Assembly: GCA_903878285.1 (NCBI GenBank)
Contig: CAIRHB010000044.1
Location: 1-49,683 of the forward strand
Length of the DNA: 49,683 bases
Direction of reading: 5' to 3'
Source: Candidatus Adlerbacteria bacterium
GTDB taxonomy: Bacteria > Patescibacteriota > Minisyncoccia > Phycocordibacterales > SBAW01
Positions 44,446 to 46,948 of this stretch are shown here, in pieces (the stretch's first letter is position 1; each line of letters begins with the position of its first letter). The position numbers and the translations under genes are program-made. Below the pieces are notes generated by a model, which did not search any database, was not told the origin of the DNA, and saw only the letters and a list, made by a program, of their open reading frames with translations.

Positions 44446-45279
44446 ATGGTAGCGCGGATTGCACTGGGAGAGTCGAGAGCACGTGCCCGACGCAGGAAGC
44501 GTCGCTTGGTTGCGTTGGGGCTCATTGTCGCAGCAGTGCTCGCGCTGTTCGGCGGCGTTGTGTGGTTGGTCGACGCGCCGTTTTGGCAAATCACGTCGGT
44601 CGACGTTGTTGGTGCGAGCGATGCGGATGCGGCGATGATACAACAGGTGGGGGCAGACACTCTTGCGCATCCATATCTACACCTCTTTTCTAAACGAAAT
44701 ATTTTATTGTATCCCAAACAAGCAATCACCGCGGCGCTGTTGGTGCAAATTCCAACACTCTCTCGTGTTGAGGTGCATGCAACCAGTCTGCATACGCTCG
44801 CGGTGGCGGTGGTCGAGCAGCAGCCGGTCGCGCTGTGGTGTGGCGACGCGAGCACGGTCTTTGCCGCCTCGTGCCACTACCTCGACGTGCATGGTGTGGC
44901 GTATGTGCCCGCGCCAACGTCGACGCCGAGCGCGTTTGTCACCTACTACGGCGCGCTCGCGACGAGTAGTAACCAATTTTTGACGCCAGAGCAGTTTTCG
45001 ACACTCACCGCACTGGTGGCGGCGCTTGGGAAGCAGGGTGACACGAGCGGTGTTGTGGGTGTTGCTGTTGATACGAATGATGATGTGCGCCTCACCTATG
45101 CAGACGGTTTCTCACTCTTGTTTGCGAGGAGTGCCGACGGCAGCGATGTGCTGAAACGATACGCGCTGGCGCTCACCGCGAGCCCTTTTGTTGGGCAACC
45201 GATCGCCAACGTTTCCTACCTCGACCTGCGCTTCGGCGACAAGCTGTACTACAAACTCAAAAACACCAGTCCTAAATAG
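44446..45279 (+). CDS. ftsQ: FtsQ/DivIB-like cell-division protein
   Basis: 277 residues: a basic cytoplasmic N-terminus, one transmembrane helix (about 22-42), a POTRA domain (ITSVDVVGASDADAAMIQQV) and the FtsQ beta domain with VVEQQPVALWCGD and HYLDVHGVAYVP. FtsQ links FtsB/FtsL to the divisome. Two Cys in the beta domain might form a disulfide. TAGAAT ends 6 nt before the ATG. Isolated from other dcw genes in this window. Confidence 0.8.
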   Translation: MVARIALGESRARARRRKRRLVALGLIVAAVLALFGGVVWLVDAPFWQITSVDVVGASDADAAMIQQVGADTLAHPYLHLFSKRNILLYPKQAITAALLVQIPTLSRVEVHATSLHTLAVAVVEQQPVALWCGDASTVFAASCHYLDVHGVAYVPAPTSTPSAFVTYYGALATSSNQFLTPEQFSTLTALVAALGKQGDTSGVVGVAVDTNDDVRLTYADGFSLLFARSADGSDVLKRYALALTASPFVGQPIANVSYLDLRFGDKLYYKLKNTSPK

Positions 45280-45303
45280 ACATAGGTCAGTCCACCGTCA
45301 ATA

Positions 45304-45331
45304 TTGACATAATCCATATAGTGTGTATACT
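45304..45331 (+). promoter_or_regulatory. Strong sigma70-type promoter of the structured RNA
   Basis: TTGACA (45304-45309), a 16-bp spacer and TATACT (45326-45331), the best promoter match I noticed in the window. Transcription would start near 45338. Confidence 0.75.
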
Positions 45332-45351
45332 GTCTTTACCACTCTCAACTG

Positions 45352-45378
45352 TAGGAGGTGAGAATGACGTGGTGGTAG
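45352..45378 (+). other. Perfect Shine-Dalgarno plus four-codon ORF at the 5' end of the RNA
   Basis: TAGGAGGTGA (45352-45361) is fully complementary to the usual 16S 3' end. It precedes ATG 45364 by a good distance, opening the frame ATG ACG TGG TGG TAG (Met-Thr-Trp-Trp). It may be a tiny leader peptide or a ribosome-binding element; translation is unproven. Confidence 0.4.
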
Positions 45379-45803
45379 CTTTAGTGCCCGATGACGTCAA
45401 GGTCAAGGGCGTATAGGGCACTAGGAATGTAAAACACACACACGACGACAATCCGGGCAGGTGTCGTCAGCGGTAGTCGGATACCAGAACATCCTCTCGG
45501 GCAACCAATAGCCATTTGAAACGAGAGGGACGGTAACGGTTCTGGGGGTAGCCCGGGCTCATCCTGCCGCGCCCACAGGTTTTGACCCTTTTCTCCACTA
45601 ACTGACCTGTGAGAGTTAGTACGAGTGAATCAAACCAAGTGGAGAGGTTTGATAAACACTCGTAATCGGAGGATGTTTGTGTGTTGCGTATGACGACCTT
45701 GGTCTACCTGGATGCTCCGGGCCACCATCCGCTCATGCCCTTCGCACGTTCTCCCAACAAGTCCTTCGGGATAGCCTAAAAACTAAGCAGTACTATCTGC
45801 TCC

Positions 45804-45839
45804 GCCGCACCCTAAGTAGGGTGCGGCGCTTTTCTTTTC
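45804..45839 (+). terminator. Rho-independent terminator of the structured RNA
   Basis: A perfect 10-bp stem GCCGCACCCT/AGGGTGCGGC with loop AAGT, followed by GCTTTTCTTTTCT. Confidence 0.9.
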
Positions 45840-45907
45840 TATATGGCGAAGGCTTGGTGAGTGTCACTACACTATGCGAGAAGTGAAAATAACGGTAGGG
45901 TAGACAT

Positions 45908-46948
45908 ATGTCGGATGAGAGTAGTAATTTCTGGGCAACGTTGCCAAAGCCGTTTTTTGTGCTCGCGCCGATGGCGAACGTGACCGACGCGGCGTTTCGA
46001 CGAATGATCGCGAAGTATAGCAAGTCTACCCGACCAGAGTATCGGGGTGGGCCGGACGTCACGTGGACCGAGTTTGTCTCGGCAGATGGGCTCGTGCTCG
46101 CGACCGAGGAGGGCAAGCAAAAGCTCTTGCGCGACCTCATCTACACCGAGGCAGAGCGACCTATTGTCGCGCAGCTGTTTACGGCAAACCCCGATACGAT
46201 GGAAAAGGCTGCGGCGATCGTGGCTGGTCTTGGCTTCGATGGAATTGATATCAACATGGGCTGCCCCGACAAGACGATCGAGAAGCAGGGTGCGGGCGCT
46301 AAGTTGATGTTGAAGCCGGATCTCGCGGTCGAGCTCATCCGCGCAGCAAAGCGCGGCGTCCTGCGGAGCGCCACTGCTGCAGGGCAACAACCGATTCCTA
46401 TTTCAGTCAAGACGCGGCTTGGATACAACAAAGATGTATTAGATAGTTGGCTGCCTGTTTTGTTGGCAGAAGAGCCAGCAGCGATTACTATCCATGCGCG
46501 CACGCGCAAGGAGATGTCAAAAGTGCCCGCGCGTTGGGAGCGGGTCAAACGCGCGGTTGAGATTCGTACTGAATTGAAGAGTAATACACTGATCATCGGC
46601 AATGGCGATGTGCAGGATATGCAGGACGCGCAGCAAAAAGCAGAGATGTCCAGCGCCGACGGCGTCATGATTGGTCGCGCTGTCTTCGGCACGCCGTGGC
46701 TTTTTTCAGATACACCTGCGGAGGAATATTTGGTTCCCGAGCGCCTGCGTATTGCGGTTGAGCATACGAAATTGTTTGAGGATCTGCTCGGGGACGTGAA
46801 GAGTTTTGCGGTGATGAAAAAGCACTTTAAGGCGTACGTCGAGGGCTTCTCCGGCGCCAAGGAGCTCCGTGTACATCTGATGGAGACCAAAACCGCTGCA
46901 GAAGTGGACACCATCATTGAACGTTTCTTGCAGGAGGGAGTATACTAG
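45908..46948 (+). CDS. dus: tRNA-dihydrouridine synthase
   Basis: 346 residues. An FMN-dependent TIM barrel that reduces uridines in tRNA. LAPMANVTDAAFRR at the N-terminus, PIVAQLFTANP, catalytic Cys in DINMGCPDK (about 119), SVKTRLGYN, ITIHARTRKEM and IIGNGDVQ, then a C-terminal helical tRNA-binding domain. TAGGGT ends 6 nt before the ATG. Which Dus subclass cannot be decided by eye. Follows the structured RNA's terminator by about 70 bp. Confidence 0.93.
   Translation: MSDESSNFWATLPKPFFVLAPMANVTDAAFRRMIAKYSKSTRPEYRGGPDVTWTEFVSADGLVLATEEGKQKLLRDLIYTEAERPIVAQLFTANPDTMEKAAAIVAGLGFDGIDINMGCPDKTIEKQGAGAKLMLKPDLAVELIRAAKRGVLRSATAAGQQPIPISVKTRLGYNKDVLDSWLPVLLAEEPAAITIHARTRKEMSKVPARWERVKRAVEIRTELKSNTLIIGNGDVQDMQDAQQKAEMSSADGVMIGRAVFGTPWLFSDTPAEEYLVPERLRIAVEHTKLFEDLLGDVKSFAVMKKHFKAYVEGFSGAKELRVHLMETKTAAEVDTIIERFLQEGVY

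Follow-up and report, generated by a model that had tools for sequence, protein, structure and literature searches.

Upstream of dus in the tiny genome of a member of the Patescibacteria lies a gene for a large structured RNA which, on comparative sequence evidence, is a real new family outside Rfam, mobile and rare, with a core supported by covariation. The window analysed here is the whole 49,683-nucleotide stretch of DNA that holds the gene, which is encoded on the plus strand and flanked by two ordinary genes, dus and an FtsQ-like gene (so called from its general look and gene order only, with no meaningful Pfam match). The account that we consider the more probable, with moderate confidence, is that the RNA is non-coding, large and structured, of a non-Rfam family, and is specified by a stand-alone gene that has both a promoter and a terminator to itself; the gene was recently inserted at this site and moves sporadically, and its product would act as the folded RNA itself, as OLE, ROOL and GOLLD do. 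Bacteria have few large structured RNAs whose function is unknown, and recent work has shown that three of these assemble from RNA alone. That ultra-small bacteria with reduced genomes evidently gain and newly insert a member of a new family raises the question of what makes an RNA of ~450 nt worth carrying; with the covariance model and the loops named below, the family is directly testable.

The RNA gene and its homologues

A sequence-only reading of this stretch had proposed a near-consensus promoter and a strong terminator around a gene-free region, and both were located (Table 1). Because shuffles are expected to give about one such promoter and about one such terminator by chance, their concordant position and strand weigh more than either signal singly. 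The proposed extent, 45304-45839, holds as a promoter-terminator frame, but the conserved core is narrower (45336-45754); the size of the RNA is estimated at ~450-500 nt, and that of its complete homologue at ~565-600 nt. The minimum free energy for 45338-45839 is -187.6 kcal/mol, against -163.3 +/- 6.5 in shuffles (z = -3.8; 0 of 100 shuffles as low). In place of the 8-bp closing stem that had been drawn, the minimum free energy structure shows a 7-bp ACUCUCA/UGAGAGU helix. This rivals the conserved P1 and P8, and the two homologues do not both clearly retain it.

The further proposal that the RNA belongs to no known class was upheld for the window RNA and for either homologue. Rfam at gathering thresholds returned only tRNAs over the full window, and Rfam 15 at E<=10 returned only chance matches for the window RNA region and both homologues (best SNORD26, 20.2 bits, and GadY, 17.4 bits), a negative that extends to ROOL, GOLLD and OLE only if that Rfam 15 library includes them. 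No description of this RNA family turned up among the papers searched.

When 397 genomes of the order were searched at the DNA level, two homologues emerged. They belong to other families within the order, and each has two blocks in the correct order and on the correct strand: a complete copy in UBA3530 (G160) and a copy cut by a contig end in HKST-UBA34 (G252). No homologue came from a DNA search that covered 24 congeners plus 16 further genomes of the order. Conserved blocks (GGAGGTGAGAATGACGTGG; AGCGGTAGNNGGATACCAGAACANCNTCTCGGGC; TTGACCCNTNTCTCCAC; CCAAGTGGAGAGG; GGAGGATGTT; CGTTCTCCCAANNAGTCCTT) run along the whole RNA, and the full-length local alignment of the window RNA with the G160 copy scores 222, against 82 +/- 9.6 in shuffles. 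A covariance model made from G160 and G252 alone, in which the missing end of G252 was replaced by that of G160, scores the window RNA at 111.7 bits (E 1.9e-33), with no other match within the window. Loops of unequal length leave P8 unformed in the register of this model on the window RNA; on inspection, each sequence plainly shows the P8 hairpin. In the two homologues, too, a TTGACA stands 47-52 nt before the GGAGG block, so that all three copies have their own promoter, and both complete copies have a terminator. Neither of these two, the window and G160 copies, contains a long open frame.

The G160 and G252 copies are ~92% identical, with similarity far greater from the GGAGG block on than in the promoter. 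The near-identity starts abruptly at that block, while the promoter and the 5' strand of P1 differ and P1 pairing is kept. Assemblies break where a sequence occurs in several contexts, and the G252 contig does so within the RNA, which may hint at further copies in the community. Downstream of the G160 copy, L107:4041-4337 is GC-rich and foreign-looking, and its 98-aa ORF has no Pfam match. The second-best DNA matches (G380, G283, G345, G139, G039 and G000:C4) were rejected as short, within unrelated sequence and lacking the other blocks; likewise, a scan of GTDB contigs with block B gave 13 matches, of which the real ones were just the two known homologues.

Table 1. Features of the RNA gene, its insertion site and its homologues (window coordinates unless another locus is named)
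Feature	Position	Strand	Remarks
Left direct repeat copy TAGACATA	45277..45284		8 bp, contains stop codon TAG of upstream gene; putative target-site duplication
Inserted unit	45285..45900	+	616 bp; missing from same junction in relatives
Promoter TTGACA-16-TATACT	45304..45331	+	sigma-70-like, 11/12 consensus matches
Helix P1	45336-45342 with 45369-45375 (span 45336..45375)	+	7 bp; invariant loop GGAGGUGAGAAUGAC; all cells paired
Shine-Dalgarno and 4-codon ORF	AGGAGGTGA 45353-45361; ATG ACG TGG TGG TAG 45364-45378	+	perfect Shine-Dalgarno
Hairpin P2	45382-45389 with 45416-45423	+	8 bp; variable among homologues
Helix P4	GCGG 45470-45473 with CCGC 45567-45570; GGAU 45479-45482 with AUCC 45561-45564	+	invariant, paired 3/3
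Helix P5	CCAGAAC 45484-45490 with GUUCUGG 45539-45545	+	invariant
Helix P6	UCCUCUCG 45492-45499 with CGAGAGGG 45522-45529	+	loop with conserved GGCNACCAANAGC; 2 pairs changed on both sides
Helix P8	CACAGG 45574-45579 with CCUGUG 45606-45611	+	loop with conserved UUGACCCNUNUCUCCAC; 2 pairs changed on both sides
Kissing partner 1, UCUCCACU	45592-45599	+	P8 loop; UCUCCAC common to all three RNAs
Helix P9	45621-45627 with 45657-45663 (7 bp); 45629-45636 with 45646-45653 (8 bp)	+	9-nt loop; 7 pairs changed on both sides
Kissing partner 2, AGUGGAGA	45638-45645	+	in invariant 9-nt P9 loop AAGUGGAGA 45637-45645
Helix P10	GGAGGAUG 45668-45675 with CGUUCUCC 45747-45754	+	closes 3' domain; invariant between two complete members, so no covariation test
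Intrinsic terminator	45803..45838	+	11 bp stem, T-rich tail
Right direct repeat copy TAGACATA	45901..45908		runs into dus start codon
G160 copy	L107:4372-5037		contig DFOX01000011.1, Patescibacteria UBA3530
G252 copy	L108:16596-17074		contig JAGQME010000017.1, Candidatus Kaiserbacteria HKST-UBA34; contig ends inside RNA (G252:C8:17074)

Covariation and the two conserved loops

Covariation establishes, at the level of comparative analysis, that the fold is real. In a hand-built alignment of 210 columns, from which the extra hairpins of G160 and G252 were trimmed, 142 of 142 counted cells for 50 named core pairs are standard pairs across the three RNAs, and changes on both sides occur in 11 core pairs, all in P6, P8 and P9. 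The pairing support is matched in none of 500 shuffles, and only 36-47% of cells pair when the partner strand is slid. This alignment was built with the fold in mind, and it was for that reason that the second covariance model was made from the two homologues alone. As the family has three members only, two of them near-identical, the support amounts in effect to that of two independent sequences. P4, P5, P10 and the kissing pair are invariant, so that they count as conserved and covariation is uninformative on them. P1 is paired in all three copies, with one pair changed on both sides, a weak signal alone; its region includes an invariant 19-nt block, GGAGGUGAGAAUGACGUGG. The compensatory changes for which a check had been suggested are thus present, with no broken pair in the named core, and together with the Rfam negatives they support the earlier proposal of a new large structured RNA: it is long, encodes no protein and contains many helices that covary, as is typical of the ornate large kind. 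It is also tentatively suggested that the P2 loop pairs with the 3' domain (CAAGGUC/GACCUUG in the window, CGGCGU/ACGCCG in G160). A 5-bp pairing of a P1 loop strand with the P8/P9 joint (CUCUC/GAGAG in the window, CACAG/CUGUG in G160) would be compensatory, but it fails in G252 and was rejected.

The complement between two hairpin loops noted in the sequence-only reading was borne out and proved slightly longer than stated there, at 8 bp in the window RNA, its second strand lying in a loop of 9 nt; it is 7 bp in each homologue. Both loops are nearly invariant. Six counted kissing pairs (7-8 bp by reading) are kept in all three RNAs; the complementarity is therefore conserved and a contact could form throughout, but since every pair is invariant there is no proof by covariation. 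Two nearly invariant complementary loops suggest, by analogy with OLE, ROOL and GOLLD, a loop-loop contact, either within the molecule or between copies; in those RNAs such contacts occur within one molecule or between copies (PMC12286853).

The P1 loop presents, in order, AGGAGGUGA, two bases and AUG. The 9-mer AGGAGGTGA is unique within the window, both strands counted, and Shine-Dalgarno-like sequence is rare before the long ORFs of the window (12 of 39 by a loose test). We take AGGAGGUGA to be complementary to the 3' end of bacterial 16S rRNA, the reference being bacterial 16S in general and not that of this genome. In the homologues the tiny ORF reads ATG ACG TGG CGA AGT ACC AYC TAA, and the predicted peptide varies among copies (MTWW, MTWRSTI, MTWRSTT). 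It is a reasonable guess from these features that the P1 loop plays a part in ribosome docking or encodes a tiny peptide.

Insertion, spread and competing origins

The gap between the FtsQ-like gene and dus is 628 nt here, but 3 nt in the closest sibling, L012 (whose Dus is 88% identical), and mostly -4 to +43 nt in other relatives. Since these neighbours abut in relatives, this lineage gained the 616-bp unit by a recent insertion. The 8-bp repeat TAGACATA stands at both joints (p 0.004 by shuffling of junction-sized stretches and 0.02 by shuffling of wider ones), and the insertion probably made a target-site duplication. By inspection, there are no terminal inverted repeats at the ends of the unit; no transposase was seen, and the RNA contains no long ORF. 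The search for a repeat drew a blank at the G160 copy, where the tRNA cluster is rearranged in congeners, so that the empty site is unreadable. Another species of the genus, L027 (G007:C54), carries at the same FtsQ-like/dus junction an unrelated 485-nt insert, which apparently holds a small reverse-strand membrane-protein ORF.

The covariance model finds the RNA in 3 of 397 genomes of the order (the window genome, G160 and G252), in a different place each time; in 380 genomes of the phylum it finds only the window genome, and within the family of G252 only G252, while a DNA search of the family of G160 finds G160 alone, although searches spanning >40 genomes use strict filters, which divergent members may escape. 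Homologues had been expected upstream of dus, but there are none there, as follows if the gene is a recent insertion at that site: the G160 copy has a tRNA pair on each side, the G252 copy comes after tRNA-Trp, and dus lacks the RNA in the relatives examined. Genes of the dus region that could be aligned between G160 and G252 share 65-74% DNA identity, against ~92% for the RNA copies, which points to horizontal transfer. So sporadic an occurrence, at a new place each time, likewise means that the gene was probably acquired horizontally; the distribution shows, on sequence grounds, a sporadic spread of the RNA gene among Patescibacteria.

Sporadic spread and insertion would also be expected if the non-coding RNA were part of the cargo or satellite of some mobile element, phage or other, serving the cycle of the element and not the host. 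The tRNA settings of the G160 and G252 copies accord with this, given that in phages ROOL and GOLLD are found close to tRNA islands (PMC12286853). Phage and plasmid collections, however, gave no real match, pattern scans of IMG/VR gave chance matches only, and no phage-like gene was recognised, in an unsystematic look, beside the window or G160 copy, so that this explanation is unlikely. The IMG/VR single-block matches, including L104/L105 and L140 (E 0.013), have only the scanned block in common with the RNA.

That all three known members come from one order could mean instead that the RNA is ancestral to the order, was lost nearly everywhere and was relocated in the three genomes that keep it. 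This is improbable: very many losses would be required, the copies in two families are ~92% identical, and the sibling junction is empty and tight. Its position directly upstream of dus, and the perfect Shine-Dalgarno and tiny Trp-containing ORF at its 5' end, might mark the RNA as a cis-acting leader (attenuator) whose leader peptide (MTWW) controls dus; this was rejected on genomic context and is very improbable, as the RNA has its own terminator ~70 nt before dus, its homologues lie near tRNA genes and not upstream of dus, and dus occurs without it in all relatives examined. That the RNA is a group I or II intron, RNase P RNA, tmRNA, SRP or 6S RNA too divergent for Rfam can hardly be credited in spite of similar size and complexity, for no such match appeared at E<=10 for any of the three RNAs, genuine RNase P RNA (G000:C7:25910) and tmRNA (G000:C2:54716) sit elsewhere in the same genome, the covariance models of these two do not match the window RNA, and it lies between genes and interrupts none.

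Possible action and comparison with known RNAs

From the absence of an encoded protein, the gene's own promoter, the terminator of the complete copies and the differing neighbours, we infer that the product is the RNA itself; our best guess, by analogy, is that it acts unaided, as the ornate RNAs OLE, ROOL and GOLLD do. A helix of 7-8 bp between the P8 and P9 loops would lock the core, or else join two or more copies, and the exposed P1 loop, with its perfect Shine-Dalgarno followed by AUG, would dock a ribosome or 16S rRNA, or start a tiny peptide (MTW...). It is tempting to go further and imagine an RNA gene, complete in itself and with no protein of its own, that passes between Patescibacteria as a promoter-RNA-terminator unit and whose product builds a multi-copy RNA assembly, engaging ribosomes via the exposed Shine-Dalgarno hairpin, although this fuller picture is distinctly doubtful.

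Among known systems, tmRNA resembles the window RNA in combining a structured RNA with a short ORF, but tRNA-like ends were not seen in the window RNA and the real tmRNA is elsewhere in the genome. OLE is, similarly, a large structured bacterial non-coding RNA with long invariant stretches; the window RNA differs in having no Rfam match, different hosts and no protein partner found. GOLLD is also large and stand-alone, with kissing loops such as those proposed here, and is tRNA-adjacent in phages, but it is often >800 nt. The window RNA differs from both GOLLD and ROOL in lacking an Rfam match and in that a phage context was not found, and from ROOL also in being known from sequence and not as an oligomer. 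Yet it shares with ROOL its size class, its many helices, a loop-loop complement, a stand-alone gene and sporadic occurrence, and two of the three copies of the window family adjoin tRNA genes.
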